Shown: positions 9,857 through 17,235 of the stretch, in pieces
Layout of the letters: each line of letters begins with the position of its first letter
Numbering within the stretch: the stretch's first letter is position 1
DNA from: Herpetosiphonaceae bacterium
GTDB taxonomy: Bacteria > Chloroflexota > Chloroflexia > Chloroflexales > Kallotenuaceae
DNA: 37,191 nucleotides
NCBI GenBank assembly: GCA_036374795.1
Contig: DASUTC010000359.1
Coordinates: forward strand, 1 to 37,191
Direction of reading: 5' to 3'
Position numbers and translations under genes: made by a program
Notes under the pieces: model-generated
Databases searched by the model: none
The model's input: the letters and a program-made list of their open reading frames with translations, nothing else
What the model was told of the DNA's origin: nothing

Positions 9857-9907
9857 GTCTATCCGCTCGTGATCGACCGATCGCGCCGATGGGTCGATCT
9901 TGGCACT

Positions 9908-12100
9908 ATGCGCGACCGACTGACCAAGCGTTCTTGGAGCGCGATCCTCAGCCTGTGCCTGGCCGCACTCGTCACGCTGGCCGTGCTGCTCGCGGCCTAC
10001 GGCTTCACGCCCCCGATCGTCCGGGCGGTGAGCGAGCACGATACATTTGTTTTCCGCGATGTTCATGGCCTTGAGCGCGCAGGCGACTTCACCTACCGCT
10101 GGAGCACCGGCGCGAGCACGATCGCCCTGCCGCAGGCCGGGCGTCCACCCAGCGCCCTGCTTGAACTCCGCCTGTGGGTGCCCGACGAGCAGCCGCCGGT
10201 GCCGCTGACACTGACCGCCAACAGCCAGCCGCTTGTCACCACGCCGATCCATGGTCGGCGCACGCTGGCGCTGCTGGTGCCGGGAGCCGCGATCAGCAGC
10301 GGCGATCCGCGCTTCGGGTTGCTCAGCCCGACCTGGAGCCCGCCCAACGATCCGCGTCCGCTCGGCGTGGGCGTTGCGCGGGTGGTCTGGCATGAGCTTG
10401 GCTGGACGCTCCCGCCCATGAGACAGATGCTCGCGCTGCCGGGCCTGGTGCTGGCGCTGGGCCTGCTGCTGCTGCGGCTTGGCCGATCCCCGCTGGTGAC
10501 GAGTCTCAGCGCCGGGATGCTCGGCGTTGGCCTGGCGCTCGGCGCAGCGCTGCGACCGCTGGCGGTCGCGCCGTACACGCACCGGCTGCTGCTGATGACG
10601 ATCCTGGGGCATGTAGCGCTGCTGCTCTGGACCGGGCTGACGCGGCCTGAGGGACGCTGGTGGGCCTTGCCGCAGCGCGTCGAGCCGGGACGACTGGTGG
10701 TGCTGCTCGGCGTCGGCTACTGGATGTTTTTGCTCTACCAGCGCGCGCTGTGCGCCGAGACGGTCAGCGGCGTCTGCCCACGGCCCGGCACACAGAACAT
10801 TGGCATCGTCGTGATGGCGCTGCTGCTGGCGCTGGCGATCGTGCCGCGTGTGGCGACGAGCACACGCTGGAAGATCGCGCTGGTGGTGCTGGCGCTGGGC
10901 GGCGTGGCGGAGGCGGCCTATGCCGCGCGCTTCGCCTTCCGCCGTTCGGGACCGGACTTTTTCATCCTGTGGCGAGCCGCGTACGACTTCCACCTTGGCC
11001 GACCGCTCTACAAGCTCGACGATGTGCTGACCAACCACTTCGGCCATGTCTTCAAGGTGCCGCCCTTCTACGGCATGCTCTTCCTGCCCTTCGCCACGTC
11101 CGACGACGTGTTTATTCTGCTGCTGCACCGGCTGCTGAACGTCGCGCTCTACCTGACGACGGGCGGGCTGCTGGCATGGCTGCTGCGTCCGCGTCTCGGC
11201 TGGCTGCTCGCGCTGACGACCGTCGGCGTGATCCTGGGGCTGATGCAGCCGCCCTTCGATACGATCGCCTACGGCCAGATCGACATCATGCTGCTGCTGC
11301 TGCTGACGCTGGCGCTGCTTGGGCTGCGCGCCGATCGGCCCTGGCTGACCGGCCTGGCAATCGCGCTCGGCACGCTCTTCAAGCTCTACCCGTTCCTGCT
11401 GGTCGGCTTCCTTTTTGTGCGACGCGAGTGGAAAGCGATCGGCTGGGTTGCCGCGTGGCTGGCGCTGCTCAACGGCATCGCGATCGGCGTGATGGGCTGG
11501 GAAAACCACGTGATCTATGTCGCGCGGGTGCTGCCCAACATCGGCGGCGGCACGAGCTGGGTAGAAAACCAGACGATCAACGGCTTTTTGAACCGGCTGA
11601 GCTACGATCCGCTGCGCACCGAGCCGATCCACAGCCTGAGCATCAGCCTGCTGACCTACGGCGGCTTCGCGCTGATCGCGGGCGTATCGCTGCTGCTGAG
11701 CATCACGCCATTCGAGCGACGGTCGATCAGCTTCGCGCTGCAACTCAGCAGCTTCGCCGTGGTGATGGTGCTGGCGGTTCCGGCGGCCTGGATGCACTAC
11801 GCCACGATCACGATCCTGGCGTTCGTGATGCTGGTCTGGCACAGCGCCGATCGACCGCTGCCGCTGGGACGGGCGGTGCTGCTGGCGCTCGCCTTTGGCC
11901 TGATCGCCTACGGCAACCAGTGGAGCTTCTTCGACGGCAAGCAAAATCCCGGCCTGCCCGCGCTGGCGCTCTCCTACAAGTTCTATGGCCTGGCGCTGCT
12001 GTGGAGCCTGATGGCCTACACGCTCTGGCGGGCCTGGGCGCTGCGTCGATCCAGCACCACGCGCTCGGCTCCGTCGGGACAGCTTATCTCGGCATCGTAA
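9908..12100 (+). CDS. GT87-like (DUF2029) polytopic membrane glycosyltransferase
   Basis: This 730-residue membrane protein probably transfers a sugar from a polyprenyl-phosphate donor on the outer face of the membrane. The C-terminal half shows the GT87/DUF2029 pattern: DFFILWRAAYDFHLGRPLY, PPFYGMLFLPFA, then YGQIDIMLLLLLTLALLGL and LGTLFKLYPFLLVGFLFVRR. An extracytoplasmic loop with NPNIGGG-like spacing sits between helices, and about ten further hydrophobic segments are visible. The N-terminal 270 residues are atypical: one helix, a roughly 130-residue soluble part, then several helices. A GTG at 9869 would give 13 extra residues. The ATG at 9908 is preferred because it leads straight into the first membrane helix. 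No partner genes of a defined glycan pathway are adjacent, so acceptor and donor are unknown. Confidence 0.8.
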   Translation: MRDRLTKRSWSAILSLCLAALVTLAVLLAAYGFTPPIVRAVSEHDTFVFRDVHGLERAGDFTYRWSTGASTIALPQAGRPPSALLELRLWVPDEQPPVPLTLTANSQPLVTTPIHGRRTLALLVPGAAISSGDPRFGLLSPTWSPPNDPRPLGVGVARVVWHELGWTLPPMRQMLALPGLVLALGLLLLRLGRSPLVTSLSAGMLGVGLALGAALRPLAVAPYTHRLLLMTILGHVALLLWTGLTRPEGRWWALPQRVEPGRLVVLLGVGYWMFLLYQRALCAETVSGVCPRPGTQNIGIVVMALLLALAIVPRVATSTRWKIALVVLALGGVAEAAYAARFAFRRSGPDFFILWRAAYDFHLGRPLYKLDDVLTNHFGHVFKVPPFYGMLFLPFATSDDVFILLLHRLLNVALYLTTGGLLAWLLRPRLGWLLALTTVGVILGLMQPPFDTIAYGQIDIMLLLLLTLALLGLRADRPWLTGLAIALGTLFKLYPFLLVGFLFVRREWKAIGWVAAWLALLNGIAIGVMGWENHVIYVARVLPNIGGGTSWVENQTINGFLNRLSYDPLRTEPIHSLSISLLTYGGFALIAGVSLLLSITPFERRSISFALQLSSFAVVMVLAVPAAWMHYATITILAFVMLVWHSADRPLPLGRAVLLALAFGLIAYGNQWSFFDGKQNPGLPALALSYKFYGLALLWSLMAYTLWRAWALRRSSTTRSAPSGQLISAS

Positions 12101-12219: not shown

Positions 12220-13398
12220 ATGGCGATTAAGTCCGACCGCTGGATCAGACAGATGGCGCTTGAGCACGGCATGATCGAGCCGTTTGAGGAAAGCCAGGTT
12301 CGGCAGGGTGTTGTCTCGTATGGGCTATCGTCGTACGGCTACGATATTCGTGTCGCCGGCGAGTTCAAAATATTCACCAGCGCGACCGGCGAGCTAACGG
12401 TTGTCGATCCCAAGAACTTCGATCCGAAAGCGTTCAAGGATTTTCAGGGCGATGAGTGCATCATTCCGCCCAACTCGTTTGCATTAGCGAAAACCGTTGA
12501 GTATTTTCGTATTCCACGCGATGTATTGACGGTCTGCGTCGGCAAAAGTACGTATGCGCGCTGCTTCCGTGGCGATACGCGCGTTGCGCTGGTAGATGGC
12601 ACCGCGCCGACGCTTGAGGAGATGGCGCGACGCGCCGACGATGGCGAGATGTTCTGGGGCTACAGCATCGGGCCGCATGGACGCATGATCGTGACGCTGC
12701 TCGAAGCGCCGCGCTACATTGGTCGGGACGCCCTGGTCGAGGTTGTGCTCGACAACGAGCAAGCGATCCACTGCACGCCCGATCATCTCTTTATGATGCG
12801 CGATGGCCGGATGGTCGCGGCGCACGATCTGCGCCCCGGCGACTCGCTCATGCCGCTGTACCGACAACTGGCGCGCGGCTATGAGGTGGTCTATCAGCCG
12901 CTCAATGGTCATCTCTACCCAACGCATCGGATGATCGAGGAGTGGAAGCTACGTCATGGCATGTATCAGAAGATTCACGGAGCCGCGCGGCTGCTCAACT
13001 GCGACCGCTCGGTGTTTCGTCGCTTCCCTGAGGTCGTGCATGCTTTCAAGGACACGCGACCAGCACGCAACCACAAAGTTGCGGCGATTCGCGATCTGCC
13101 GGGCGACCACGATGTCTACTGCCTGACCGTGCCCGAAGCAGGCAACTTCGCGCTGGAGGCGGGCGTATTCGTCCACAATTGCGGCATTATCGTCAACGTA
13201 ACGCCGTTCGAGCCGGAGTGGGAGGGCTTCGTCACGCTTGAGATCAGCAATACCACGCCGCTCCCGGCGAAAATCTACGCCAACGAGGGCATCGCGCAGG
13301 TGTTGTTCTTCCAGAGCGACGAGCCGTGCATGACCAGCTACCGCGACAAGGCCGGAAAATATCAAAACCAGCAAGGGCTGACGCTGCCCAAACTGTGA
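12220..13398 (+). CDS. dcd: dCTP deaminase interrupted by an in-frame mini-intein
   Basis: dCTP deaminase converts dCTP to dUTP on the route to dTMP. The 392-codon frame encodes two things. Residues 1-114 and 321-392 together form a normal 186-residue enzyme: YGYDIRV, then GKSTYAR joined to [20 protein letters not shown]. The conserved LEISNTTP contains the catalytic glutamate, followed by [12 protein letters not shown]. Residues 115-320 are an intein. The junction lies directly after the substrate-binding Ser/Arg motif (KSTYAR), so the unspliced protein should be inactive. The first residue after the insert is Cys, a competent +1 nucleophile. AAGGAG sits 8 nt upstream of the ATG. The next gene, a sugar kinase, starts 17 nt after the stop. 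Confidence 0.95.
12562..13179 (+). other. Mini-intein (206 residues) in dcd
   Basis: The insert starts with Cys in [10 protein letters not shown] (block A). Block B contains CTPDHLFM, with the Thr-x-x-His at intein residues 72 and 75. Near the end are NHKV (170-173), DVYCLTV and [13 protein letters not shown], giving the penultimate His205 and terminal Asn206, followed by extein Cys. All splicing residues are present, so protein splicing is expected. The middle (about 108-165) holds [13 protein letters not shown] and [10 protein letters not shown]. These resemble the start of an intein-borne HNH-type endonuclease but lack its downstream His-His/Asn cluster. This is probably a degenerate homing-endonuclease remnant; that reading is inference. 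Confidence 0.93.
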
Positions 13399-13414: not shown

Positions 13415-14419
13415 ATGCCCAATCGACGCTCGACCGCCCAGGTGTTGGCCGCGCTGGCCCGTCAGCGCATTCTGGTCATCGGCGATGTCTTTCTCGACGA
13501 GTATGTCTTCGGCCACGCGACGCGCCTGTCGCGCGAGGCGCCGATCCCCGTGCTTGAGTTCGACCGCCGGACGTACATTCCGGGCGGCGCGGCCAATCCG
13601 GCCAACAACATTGCCGCGCTGGGCGCGACCGCCATCCAGGCGGCGGTGGTCGGCGAGGACGGCGAGGGCCAGCAGTTGATCGCGCTGCTGCGTGAGGTCG
13701 GCGTCGAGCCCGGCTGCATCCTGATCGACGCCGACCGCCCGACGACCGTCAAGACACGCATCATCTCGCAAAGCTCGCTGCGCTTCTCACAGCAGCTCGC
13801 GCGGATAGACCGCATCGACCGGCAGCCGATCAACGGCGCGATCGTCGCGGCGCTGGTCGAGCGCATCGGCGCGTGTGTGCCGCAGATCGACGCCGTGCTC
13901 TGCTCCGACTACCTGAGCGGGCTGCTGACGCCGCCGCTGGTGCGCGAGATCGCCCGGCTGTGCCAGCAGCACAACGTTTTGCTGACCGTGGACGCGCAGG
14001 GCGAGCTGGCGAAGTACAGCGGCGCTGGCCTGCTGCGCTGCAACAACGACGAGGCCGCCGCCTACCTGGGCCGGTCGATCACCGGCGAGGACGAGTACCG
14101 CCGCGCGCTGGACGATCTGCTTGAGATGCTTGAGCCGGAGCTGATGATCGTCACCCGTGGCCGCGATGGGCTGTCGATCCGGGGCCGCGCGCAGCCCTAC
14201 CTGCACATCCCCGCGCACCGCGTCGAGGCCGCCGATACGACCGGCGCTGGCGATACGTTCATCGCCGTGATCACGCTGGCGCTGGCCGCCGAGATCGAGC
14301 CGGTCGCGGCGGCGCAGATGGCAAACTACGCGGCGGGATTGGTCGTGCGGCGGCTCGGCAACGCAGTGGTAACGCCCGACGAATTAGCGCAGGGCATACC
14401 GCCTGCGGCGATGGGATAA
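13415..14419 (+). CDS. rfaE1: D-glycero-beta-D-manno-heptose-7-phosphate kinase (RfaE1/HldE N-domain type)
   Basis: A PfkB/ribokinase-fold kinase that phosphorylates heptose 7-phosphate at C1 on the path to nucleotide-activated heptose. The N-terminal ILVIGDVFLDEYVFG, GGAANPANNIAALGA and the C-terminal anion-hole motif AADTTGAGDTF are clear. The catalytic aspartate is in the last motif. The 334-residue length matches the stand-alone RfaE N-domain. It is immediately followed, 3 nt later, by the nucleotidyltransferase that in E. coli is fused to it as HldE. Other PfkB sugar kinases are possible in principle, but this neighbour makes heptose kinase the best call. It probably belongs to one transcription unit from dcd to murJ. 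Confidence 0.87.
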   Translation: MPNRRSTAQVLAALARQRILVIGDVFLDEYVFGHATRLSREAPIPVLEFDRRTYIPGGAANPANNIAALGATAIQAAVVGEDGEGQQLIALLREVGVEPGCILIDADRPTTVKTRIISQSSLRFSQQLARIDRIDRQPINGAIVAALVERIGACVPQIDAVLCSDYLSGLLTPPLVREIARLCQQHNVLLTVDAQGELAKYSGAGLLRCNNDEAAAYLGRSITGEDEYRRALDDLLEMLEPELMIVTRGRDGLSIRGRAQPYLHIPAHRVEAADTTGAGDTFIAVITLALAAEIEPVAAAQMANYAAGLVVRRLGNAVVTPDELAQGIPPAAMG

Positions 14420-14422
14420 GCG

Positions 14423-14947
14423 ATGCGAACTGTGATACCTCTGGAAGAGCTTGCTCGGCTCCGGCAGCAGTGGCGCGACCGTGGGCTGCGGGTTGTCTTC
14501 ACCAACGGCATCTTCGACCTGCTGCACATCGGCCATCTGCAATACCTGGAGGCCGCGCGTGCCCTGGGCGATCTGCTGGTCGTCGGCCTCAACAGCGACA
14601 GCTCGACGCGCCAGCTCAAAGGGCCGCAGCGTCCGCTGATTCCTCAGGAGGAGCGCGCCGCGCTGCTGCTTGGCCTGCGTCCCGTCGATTATGTCACGAT
14701 CTTCGAGGATCGCACCGCCGAGCATCTGGTCGCGACGCTTCAGCCCGATGTGTACGTCAAAGGCGGCGACTACACGCTGAGCGCTGCGGATTCCGCCGCC
14801 AGCACGGCCAATGCCACGCCGCCGAAAACGCTGCCGGAGGCGCGCATCGTGCAGGGCTACGGCGGGCACGTCGAGCTGATCAGCTACCTGCCCGGACACT
14901 CGACGACCGAGCTGATCGAGCGGATTGTGGAGCGCTATGCACGCTAA
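14423..14947 (+). CDS. rfaE2: D-glycero-beta-D-manno-heptose-1-phosphate nucleotidyltransferase (RfaE2/HldE C-domain type)
   Basis: This enzyme transfers a nucleotide (AMP in the known pathway) to heptose 1-phosphate. The cytidylyltransferase-fold signature is seen in VVFTNGIFDLLHIGHLQYLE, followed by VGLNSDSSTRQLKGPQRPL, then VYVKGGDYT and a C-terminal PGHSTTELIERI. The family's two histidines of the HxGH motif are present. The 174-residue length is slightly above the usual 160 because of an Ala/Ser/Thr-rich insertion around residues 123-138. It starts 3 nt after the kinase stop and overlaps the PIG-L gene by 11 nt, so the three are almost certainly co-translated. Confidence 0.9.
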   Translation: MRTVIPLEELARLRQQWRDRGLRVVFTNGIFDLLHIGHLQYLEAARALGDLLVVGLNSDSSTRQLKGPQRPLIPQEERAALLLGLRPVDYVTIFEDRTAEHLVATLQPDVYVKGGDYTLSAADSAASTANATPPKTLPEARIVQGYGGHVELISYLPGHSTTELIERIVERYAR

Positions 14948-15653
14948 GCGGCTACTTGCGGTCTGGGCGCATCCCGACGACGAAGCCTTCGGGCCGGTCG
15001 GGACGATGCGCCTGGCTCACGACCGGGGCTGGCGGACGGCGGTGATCACCGCCACGCGCGGCGACGCCGGAAACGACGACGCGGCGGATCTCGCGCCGGG
15101 GCAGACCTTGGGCGATCTGCGCGAGCATGAGTTGCGCTGCTCCGCTGAGGTGCTGGGCATCGAGCGGATCGATGTCTGGCGGCATCCCGACGGCGGCTTG
15201 CAGAACTTGCCGCCGGGCCTGCTCGCCGAGCAGGTGCTTGAAGTCATGCGCGACTGGCAGCCGACGATCGTGCTGACCTTTGGGCCGGACGGTATCACGG
15301 GCCATCCCGACCATCTGGCGATTCACGACGCGACGGAGCAGGCGTTTGCGCGATACCGCGCCGAGTGCCAGACCGAGCGACCGCCACGGCTGTACTACGT
15401 CACGATCAGGCCGAAGCGAACGATCGAGCATCCGATGGGCGCTGCGCCGCCGCACGCTCCCCCGACCGCCGTGCTCGACGTGAGCGCGTACGAGCAGATC
15501 AAGCGCGACGCGCTGAGCTGCCATGCGTCGCAGCGCGCCGACTGGGAGCCGCTGCTCGCCGACCGCGACTGGCTGACGATCGATCGGCTGTTCCGCGCGT
15601 TTCCGCCCGCCGCGCCGAACGCGCCGCCGGAGACGACGATCTTCGATGAGTAA
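14937..15653 (+). CDS. PIG-L/LmbE-type zinc deacetylase
   Basis: Family members remove N-acetyl groups from amino sugars or their conjugates. The zinc motif AHPDDEAFGPVG lies near the N-terminus, and the third ligand region TFGPDGITGHPDHLAIHDA is central, with RPPRLYY and a helix-rich end following. The ATG at 14937 overlaps the previous gene by 11 nt; an upstream in-frame TTG is less likely. The gene's end overlaps the murJ start by 8 nt. The 238-residue length is normal. The substrate cannot be deduced. Neighbours suggest sugar or envelope-glycan work, but MshB/BshB-like thiol-cofactor roles use the same fold and are not excluded. Confidence 0.88.
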   Translation: MHAKRLLAVWAHPDDEAFGPVGTMRLAHDRGWRTAVITATRGDAGNDDAADLAPGQTLGDLREHELRCSAEVLGIERIDVWRHPDGGLQNLPPGLLAEQVLEVMRDWQPTIVLTFGPDGITGHPDHLAIHDATEQAFARYRAECQTERPPRLYYVTIRPKRTIEHPMGAAPPHAPPTAVLDVSAYEQIKRDALSCHASQRADWEPLLADRDWLTIDRLFRAFPPAAPNAPPETTIFDE

Positions 15654-17235
15654 GGCATCCGCGCCAACCGAGCCGACCACGCCCGCCGCGCAGATCGGGA
15701 GAGGCATTGCGATCGCCGCCGCGCTGATCGCGATCGGCAACATCGCGAGCCGCCTCCTGGGCCAGGCCCGCGAGACGATCATCGCCCGACTCTTTGGCGT
15801 GAGCGTCGAGAGCAGCGCCTACGCCATCGCCTCCGCCGTGCCCACCACGCTCTACGACCTGATCGTCGGCGGGCTGGTCAGCGCCGCGCTGGTGCCGGTC
15901 TTCTCCGAGCTAGCCGAGCGCGACGAGGCCGAGCTTGGCCGCGTGGCCGGCACGATCTTCACGCTGGCGACCCTGATCATGGCGACCGCCGCCGGACTGA
16001 CCTGGCTGGCAGCGCCCTGGCTGGGCACGCTGCTCACGCTCAGCACCAACTCGCCCATGCTGCGCAGCGAGACGATCGACCTGATCCCGTGGATGCTGCC
16101 CGCGACGATCTTCATGGCCCTGGCCGGGCTGATCACCGGCCTGCTGCAAGCCCGGCGGCGCTTTCTGCTTCCGGCGTTCAGCACCGCCACCTTCAACGTC
16201 GGCATCATCGTCGGCGGCCTGCTCTTCAGCGCGGGCTACGGCGTGCGCAGCCTGGCGATCGGTATGGGCATCGGCGCGCTGGGCCAGGTATTGCTGCAAG
16301 CGCCCGGATTGCGAGGCGTGCCGCTGCGCCTGGCCCTCGATCTCCGGCATCCCGATGTACGGCGCATCGGCAGGCTCTACGTGCCCGTGCTGATCGGCCT
16401 GAGCTTCAGCCTGATCGGCATCGTGATCGACCGATCGCTGGCGTCGGGCGTGAGCGAGGGCGCGGCGGCGCAGATGCGCTTCGCGACCACGCTGATCCAG
16501 CTTGCGCTGGGCATTGTCGCTACGGCGATCTCGCTGGCAGCGCTGCCGACGCTCTCACGCCAGGGCGCTGACCCGTCTGATCTGACCGAGTACCGGCGCA
16601 CGCTGGCGCTCTCGATCAAGTCGCTGCTGCTGCTGCTGCTGCCGGTGACGGCTCTGATGGCCGCGCTGGCCTATCCGATCACCGCGCTGCTCTTCGAGGG
16701 CGGCGAGACGACGGCTGCTGGCGCTGTCGCGATCGGCACGGCCCTGCTCTTCTATCTGCCCAGCCTGATCGCCGCCGGTATCGACCAGCCGTTGATCTTC
16801 GCCTTCTACGCACGGCGGAACACGCTGCTGCCCAATCTGGTCAACGGCGGCGCGATCGGAGCCTATCTGCTGGTCGCGTTTCTCACGGTGCGCGCGTGGG
16901 GCGTCTACGGGCTGATCCTGGGCAACGTCGTGCAGTGGTGGGTTCATGCGCTGCTGATGCTCTGGTTCGCGCATCACCGGCTGGATGCGCTGCGCGGCCA
17001 GCGGCTCGGCGAGGCCGTGTGGAAGGGCGTGCTCGCCAGCGGCGCTGCGGGAGCAATCTGCGGGGCGCTGTACACGCTCGTGGATGGCCCGGCGCAGGGC
17101 AAAATCATGATCCTGGCGCTGATCGTCGGGCTGGGCAGCCTGGGGCTGGGCCTGTATCTGGGCATGGCCTATCTGCTGCGGCTGGAAGCGCTCTATGCCT
17201 TCGGCGCGGCGATCGGTCGTCGCATGCGGCGGTAG
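15646..17235 (+). CDS. murJ: Lipid II flippase MurJ (MviN family)
   Basis: MurJ flips lipid-linked peptidoglycan precursors across the membrane. The 529-residue protein has about fourteen hydrophobic segments and the MviN signatures: an N-terminal SRLLGQARETIIARLFG, AYAIASAVPTTLYDLIVGGLVSAALVPVF, then LLQARRRFLLPAF. The internal LASGVSEGAAAQMRFA and the late YARRNTLLPNLVNGGA are also typical. The start overlaps the PIG-L gene by 8 nt. Basic residues on the cytoplasmic loops follow the positive-inside rule. With the upstream sugar genes this forms an envelope-biosynthesis cluster. Other MOP-superfamily polysaccharide flippases are the main alternative, but the motifs favour MurJ. Confidence 0.9.
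   Translation: MSKASAPTEPTTPAAQIGRGIAIAAALIAIGNIASRLLGQARETIIARLFGVSVESSAYAIASAVPTTLYDLIVGGLVSAALVPVFSELAERDEAELGRVAGTIFTLATLIMATAAGLTWLAAPWLGTLLTLSTNSPMLRSETIDLIPWMLPATIFMALAGLITGLLQARRRFLLPAFSTATFNVGIIVGGLLFSAGYGVRSLAIGMGIGALGQVLLQAPGLRGVPLRLALDLRHPDVRRIGRLYVPVLIGLSFSLIGIVIDRSLASGVSEGAAAQMRFATTLIQLALGIVATAISLAALPTLSRQGADPSDLTEYRRTLALSIKSLLLLLLPVTALMAALAYPITALLFEGGETTAAGAVAIGTALLFYLPSLIAAGIDQPLIFAFYARRNTLLPNLVNGGAIGAYLLVAFLTVRAWGVYGLILGNVVQWWVHALLMLWFAHHRLDALRGQRLGEAVWKGVLASGAAGAICGALYTLVDGPAQGKIMILALIVGLGSLGLGLYLGMAYLLRLEALYAFGAAIGRRMRR

Follow-up and report, generated by a model that had tools for sequence, protein, structure and literature searches.

HldA and HldC are the split heptose-7-phosphate kinase and heptose-1-phosphate adenylyltransferase of, for example, Burkholderia; homologous domains are joined in the bifunctional HldE of Escherichia coli. 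TagA/TarA, WecG and TagD are enzymes of wall-teichoic-acid or enterobacterial common antigen (ECA) assembly, and MurJ is the lipid II flippase. Relatives of these proteins lie together in a Herpetosiphonaceae bacterium (assembly GCA_036374795.1), on a contig of 37,191 nucleotides (DASUTC010000359.1, or C359), the whole of which we call the window. At positions 13415-17235 of its + strand, open reading frames and family profiles give an HldA-like kinase, an HldC-like nucleotidyltransferase, a PIG-L family deacetylase and a MurJ. The first two resemble HldA and HldC in fold families, catalytic motifs, their split genes and their best PDB matches (4e84 and 5x9q), but they score below the curated cut-offs, carry residues of their own (Arg40 and a DxQ/HG motif in the kinase, Ala99 and Tyr111 in the nucleotidyltransferase) and are linked to a MurJ paralogue, here MurJ2, and not to lipopolysaccharide (LPS) genes. 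They differ from HldE in being separate proteins of a distinct subfamily; a fused copy is present in this genome on contig C302, and its nucleotidyltransferase domain is degenerate. The likeness to teichoic-acid and ECA assembly lies in relatives of the locus, where a WecG/TagA-family transferase occurs with a PF01467 nucleotidyltransferase, in some cases beside MurJ2; the nucleotidyltransferase is HldC-like and not TagD, the flippase is of MurJ type, and no WecG/TagA transferase was seen at the window. Our reading, which we regard as an even call, is that the locus is the local form of a Chloroflexota module that would supply an activated heptose-like sugar to a wall or surface glycan carried on polyprenyl and flipped by the module's own MurJ paralogue.

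Passages of three papers describe Chloroflexota as free of LPS (PMC8871954, PMC4591325, PMC3368417), and one treats the number of membranes as debated (PMC8871954), so that of the premise of the initial annotation, a monoderm lineage without LPS, the second half stands and the first is debated. A wall polysaccharide would not be new to this bacterial group: a title in the reference list of the Herpetosiphon genome paper names a peptidoglycan-polysaccharide complex (PMC3368417), and a passage of PMC2632651 reports LytR-CpsA-Psr proteins from Chloroflexales and Herpetosiphonales. Enzymes of nucleoside diphosphate (NDP)-heptose synthesis beyond LPS producers are also already known (a passage of PMC11573728). 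In the one open-access collection searched, we found no literature joining Chloroflexi or Chloroflexota with heptose/LPS, with MurJ/heptose or with teichoic acid/WecG.

Gene order and the linked MurJ paralogue

The features of the locus are as follows.

13415..14419, + strand: HldA-like PfkB kinase of subfamily 'B' (TIGR02198, PF00294); Arg40 in SREAP, Gln195 in DAQG, GAGD kept
14423..14947, + strand: HldC-like nucleotidyltransferase of subfamily 'B' (TIGR02199, PF01467); HIGH, KGGDY and STT kept; Ala99 and Tyr111
14774..14833, + strand: Ala/Ser/Thr-rich, length-variable loop of the nucleotidyltransferase (residues ~118-137; alignment of 39 B-type and 8 fused rows)
14937..15653, + strand: PIG-L family deacetylase (PF02585), from an ATG whose position overlaps the nucleotidyltransferase gene (alternative TTG at 14925)
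15646..17235, + strand: MurJ paralogue of the nucleotidyltransferase-linked clade, 'MurJ2' (TIGR01695, 269.3 bits; clade 100/100)

The kinase and nucleotidyltransferase genes are 3 bp apart, the nucleotidyltransferase and PIG-L genes overlap by 11 bp (from the ATG) and the PIG-L and MurJ genes by 8 bp, a spacing that suggests co-transcription of all four. The frames and family calls agree with the tight, one-strand order first described for these genes. The same order is kept in loci L040, L041, L042 and L075, and is therefore not due to chance.

To place the locus among its relatives we compared 51 neighbourhoods in 40 genomes (including the window and four named records), which were chosen by score and spread, not by random draw, and several of which are cut by contig ends. 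The kinase lies beside the nucleotidyltransferase in 26 of the 40 genomes, the nucleotidyltransferase beside a MurJ in 23 (one being the cut MurJ of L090), and a WecG/TagA/CpsF-family gene within 5 kb of either enzyme in 16. Kinase, nucleotidyltransferase, MurJ and WecG/TagA occur all together in five loci (L089, L091, L094, L095 and L097). The set is split in two in genomes G126 (family f5) and G270 (f78), where the kinase accompanies WecG/TagA and the nucleotidyltransferase accompanies MurJ, an arrangement that speaks for the four as one set. Among 46 B loci (634 kb), 16 have a WecG/TagA gene, and none was found at the 67 control loci (516 kb); with the controls restricted to the 29 longer than 5 kb (419 kb), Fisher's test gives a p of 1e-4, though the loci are not independent of one another and were not matched by kinship. 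PF03808 was confirmed on all four of the WecG/TagA-family proteins scanned, and TarA is the top NCBIfam match for three of four linked proteins of this family scanned.

The window MurJ scores above the TIGR01695 cut-off of 235.55 bits, a likeness to the lipid II flippase, but falls in a separate clade with conserved residues of its own. A search of the genome returned two clear matches, on C336 (277 bits) and in the window (233 bits), and three more of at most 32 bits; the second clear match rejects the idea of a single MurJ in this genome. Among 36 genomes scanned, 35 hold at least one MurJ at 1e-30 and 33 hold two to four. In a quick tree of 62 rows, all 21 linked and seven unlinked rows form one group (SH-aLRT, the approximate likelihood-ratio test, 99), one of the seven, L169, turning out to be nucleotidyltransferase-linked; 30 other Chloroflexota rows group at 96, and the long L136, L151 and L154 and E. 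coli MurJ are weakly placed. A careful tree of 53 rows separates 27 from 26 at 100/100, with 21 linked and six unlinked rows in the 27-row clade and only unlinked rows on the 26-row side, the clade having been named after the first tree was viewed and most unlinked rows having been fetched with flanks of only ~0.5 kb. This tree omits nine matching frames (long or partial, including the linked L088) and E. coli MurJ; the 62-row tree includes the omitted frames bar one fragment, and the cut L090 MurJ is in neither. At 19 positions one letter reaches at least 85% in the linked clade and at most 30% in the rest; examples, numbered as in the window protein, are Asp71, Tyr245, Thr281, Gln285, Asp380, Tyr407 and His434. 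Both groups share Arg24 (E. coli numbering). The initial annotation had proposed a coupling to peptidoglycan export; the linkage is widespread, but this MurJ is one of two and belongs to a separate clade, and the link is stronger and more interesting than was stated there.

The PIG-L protein scores 107.3 bits against PF02585 (gathering score 28.2) and does not reach the equivalog cut-offs for BshB, MshB and Mca. Among the loci of one neighbourhood set its gene stands between nucleotidyltransferase and MurJ only in the window, L040, L041, L042 and L075; since it is inside the operon solely in these nearest relatives, we take it for a local addition and reject it as part of the module core. The PIG-L-like genes found close to the pair in L095-L097 share ~30% identity and run on the opposite strand. 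Of the original grouping of deacetylase with MurJ, the tie to MurJ extends to many Chloroflexota families and that to PIG-L does not.

The enzyme pair and heptose-pathway genes elsewhere

The window kinase retains the PfkB catalytic motif (Asp280 in GAGDT; GAGD in 24/24 B kinase rows), and its nearest PDB chain, 4e84, is named heptose 7-phosphate kinase (166 bits). In the alignment the B, or split-type, kinases share Glu29 in 23 of 24 rows. The window kinase lacks both the DxKG lysine (Gln195) and the SPEAP motif (Arg40), which are common in A-type reference rows; these marks are our own reading of the alignment. Comparison of Gln195 or His195 with the presence of the isomerase GmhA across the B kinases gave no clear-cut association. 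Divergent HldA-like kinases with altered motifs also occur in two f4 genomes with no nucleotidyltransferase match, G142 (L187 6096-7307) and G166 (L188 6560-7606), the L188 kinase having GAND in place of GAGD.

The nucleotidyltransferase holds all of the HxGH, KG, KGGDY and STT motifs, and its nearest PDB chain, 5x9q, is named putative cytidylyltransferase (111 bits). In the nucleotidyltransferase tree the B and A types are the two sides of one weakly supported branch (79/47), and in L094 and L101 kinase and nucleotidyltransferase are in separate frames, not fused. A motif of nucleotide promiscuity in NDP-heptose enzymes is given as (F/L)XXGRSTT in a passage of PMC11573728; the window protein reads YLPGHSTT and does not match it. 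The Ala/Ser/Thr-rich insertion that had been called unusual is present and is absent from 5x9q, but this loop varies in length, being missing from some relatives and shorter or just as long in others, and we reject it as an unusual feature. Because both enzymes miss the NCBIfam cut-offs and carry subfamily residues, 'HldA/HldC-like' is the safe name for the pair.

The assembly measures 7.75 Mb in 373 contigs (completeness 100, contamination 4.9), and the search for gmhA, gmhB and heptosyltransferase genes that had been suggested found candidates for all three. A GmhA-like protein on C116 scores 184.9 bits, below the cut-off of 209.45, and keeps the positions aligned with E. coli Glu65 and His180, which we take to be catalytic; a second, weaker one on C65 (129 bits) has Asp at the Glu65 position. 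Adjoining the C116 gene is a GmhB of 195.5 bits, over the cut-off of 178, and a second GmhB-like protein on C362 falls below it (156.6 bits). There are seven matches to the heptosyltransferase family GT9, three of which adjoin the C362 gene; the two that were scanned are both below heptosyltransferase cut-offs. The fused HldE of C302 (~500 aa; L023 426-1913) retains GAGD in its kinase domain, but its nucleotidyltransferase domain has NSGH for HxGH, RG for KG and SVP for STT. The HldE of the same-family genome G150 (L185 5548-7149) has decayed further, with SSAQ for HxGH and both KG and STT gone, again with kinase GAGD kept. The only PF01467 matches in the window genome are NadD, CoaD, the window nucleotidyltransferase and the C302 domain; as the last is degenerate, the heptose-1-phosphate step has the window protein as its only intact candidate among them. 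A single nucleotidyltransferase match was likewise found in all seven f3 genomes of our draw and in G270. Kinases above the HldA cut-off occur in G110 (f3) and in G270, where a GmhA-like gene lies less than 1 kb from the kinase.

At the level of homologues, the adenosine diphosphate-heptose pathway is therefore complete in this genome: isomerase, kinases (C302 and window), phosphatase and nucleotidyltransferase (window). The contigs involved do not look like contamination, because their genes are 58-76% identical to homologues in G150 (HldE 68%, GmhA 76%, GmhB 68 and 62%, GT9 72 and 58%), which is comparable to the window genes (73-76% for kinase, nucleotidyltransferase and MurJ, 56% for PIG-L).

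Nor is the pair an oddity of a single genome: at an E-value of 1e-3, and counting fused forms, 146 of the 301 Chloroflexota genomes have a relative of the nucleotidyltransferase. GmhA matches at 1e-15 occur in 138; 97 genomes have both, 49 the nucleotidyltransferase alone, 41 GmhA alone and 114 neither (odds ratio 5.5, p 2e-12, uncorrected for kinship). In one genome, G023, the GmhA match is weak (87 bits), and directly upstream of the pair (L107 6172-7050) is a xylose-isomerase-like TIM-barrel protein (PF01261), possibly an alternative isomerase.

A proposed pathway and its alternatives

In the pathway we propose, the kinase would phosphorylate C1 of a sugar phosphate, GmhB-like enzymes encoded elsewhere in the genome would remove the other phosphate, and the nucleotidyltransferase would then make the NDP-sugar. 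The sugar would be added onto a polyprenyl-diphosphate-linked acceptor by a glycosyltransferase, in many relatives one of WecG/TagA type and otherwise another, and the MurJ paralogue would flip the lipid-linked product outward, giving a wall or surface polymer. In the window lineage PIG-L may deacetylate an amino-sugar of the polymer. The window nucleotidyltransferase probably also serves the separate GmhA/GmhB/HldE/GT9 pathway, where the corresponding domain of HldE looks dead. Heptose is a plausible candidate for the sugar. The gene order, family relations, MurJ paralogy, linkage and lost motifs are observed; the substrates, the sequence of reactions, the flipping and the polymer are deduced from them. 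More broadly, we suggest, tentatively and with some doubt, that LPS-less Chloroflexota share an undescribed wall-polymer module of a WecG/TagA transferase, a divergent HldA/HldC pair making NDP-heptose or a close relative, and a MurJ specialized for that product over lipid II.

Several observations weigh against a heptose module of this kind. Both enzymes fall short of their equivalog-domain profiles, the kinase at 303.4 bits against the TIGR02198 cut-off of 345 and the nucleotidyltransferase as a near miss at 179.8 bits against the TIGR02199 cut-off of 181.5. The kinase miss is weak evidence, because, of five fused HldE kinase domains from Chloroflexota, four have even lower scores (L109 241, L106 237, C302 271, L185 263); the cut-off is passed by the fused L111 (416) and by two stand-alone A-type kinases, L129 (365) and L186 (389). 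Among six further B nucleotidyltransferases scanned against the HldC cut-off, one passes (L102, 200 bits) and five fail. The subfamily-specific residues suggest that the activated sugar may differ from heptose: Arg40 is present in every B kinase (24/24 rows, with a larger kinase set in agreement), His or Gln replaces the DxKG lysine in 24/24 where A-type rows have Lys in 8/9, and B nucleotidyltransferases have Ala99 and Tyr111 in 39/39 where A rows have Pro99 in 8/8 and no Tyr111. The Asn of RPxN, found in 7/8 A rows, is missing from 37/39 B rows (all but L105 and L169). Of 32 selected genomes searched with a gmhA profile, 15 returned no hit and seven no more than 20-27 bits; both B enzymes were seen in ten of these 22 (G117, G033, G010, G092, G252 and G205 with no hit; G288, G088, G240 and G084 with a weak one). 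Genome G166 has a MurJ of the linked clade and no nucleotidyltransferase match. No WecG/TagA gene was found at the window or L040-L043 (0/5, outside the 46 B loci) or at L075, the search covering these loci and not the whole genome, and linkage is in any case no proof of a shared pathway.

The same residues, sub-threshold scores and ten genomes lend themselves to another explanation, in which the pair acts on a sugar or polyol phosphate other than manno-heptose and supplies a linkage unit or polymer of teichoic-acid kind, which MurJ2 flips; the TarA matches of the linked transferases would fit it. We hold this to be possible, but doubtful. The nucleotidyltransferase nearly reaches the heptose cut-off, and that of L102, whose genome gave no GmhA hit, scores above it; at 1e-15 every f1, f2 and f3 genome of the draw has a GmhA-like match, that of G024 being weak (3e-24); and the window genome, the seven f3 genomes and G270 show no other intact nucleotidyltransferase for the heptose pathway. 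An ordinary wall-gene neighbourhood, in which this MurJ is a spare flippase for lipid II and the genes for the sugar enzymes lie nearby without being related to it in function, would account for the TIGR01695 score and for Arg24, kept in 28/28 clade members. It appears improbable when set against the 19 clade-specific positions, the other clear MurJ of the genome, and the finding that nucleotidyltransferase-linked MurJ all fall in one clade, none of those tested in the other clade being linked within flanks of ~0.5 kb.

The resemblance of the HldE, GmhA-like, GmhB and GT9 genes to an LPS inner-core set raises the question of remnant or working core machinery of an LPS-bearing outer membrane. 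We do not favour this and think it very unlikely on published reports: passages of PMC8871954 report the phylum as LPS-free, with LptF/LptG apparently missing, and a passage of PMC4591325 describes one Chloroflexi genome without BamA or an LPS pathway; no search for lpx, lpt or other lipid A genes was made in this genome. The gene set itself does not imply LPS. For the module reading, the point of interest is that heptose chemistry, usually taken as a sign of LPS, here has homologues of every pathway step, together with a second, nucleotidyltransferase-linked MurJ clade, in a reportedly LPS-free phylum, a warning against treating hld or gmh genes as outer-membrane markers. It raises the questions of which polymer is attached to, or displayed on, the wall of Chloroflexota, and whether some flippases of the MurJ family have evolved to carry substrates besides lipid II.

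Genes upstream of the locus

Directly upstream of the kinase, a dCTP deaminase gene (12220-13398) holds an in-frame intein at ~12565-13182, with TIGR01445 and TIGR01443 above their cut-offs. The gene is uninterrupted in L041, L042 and L075, and L040 has an insertion of ~1.1 kb at the same site. Further upstream, a GT87-family glycosyltransferase gene (PF09594) at 9869-12100 is kept in L041 and has no match in L040, L042 or L075.

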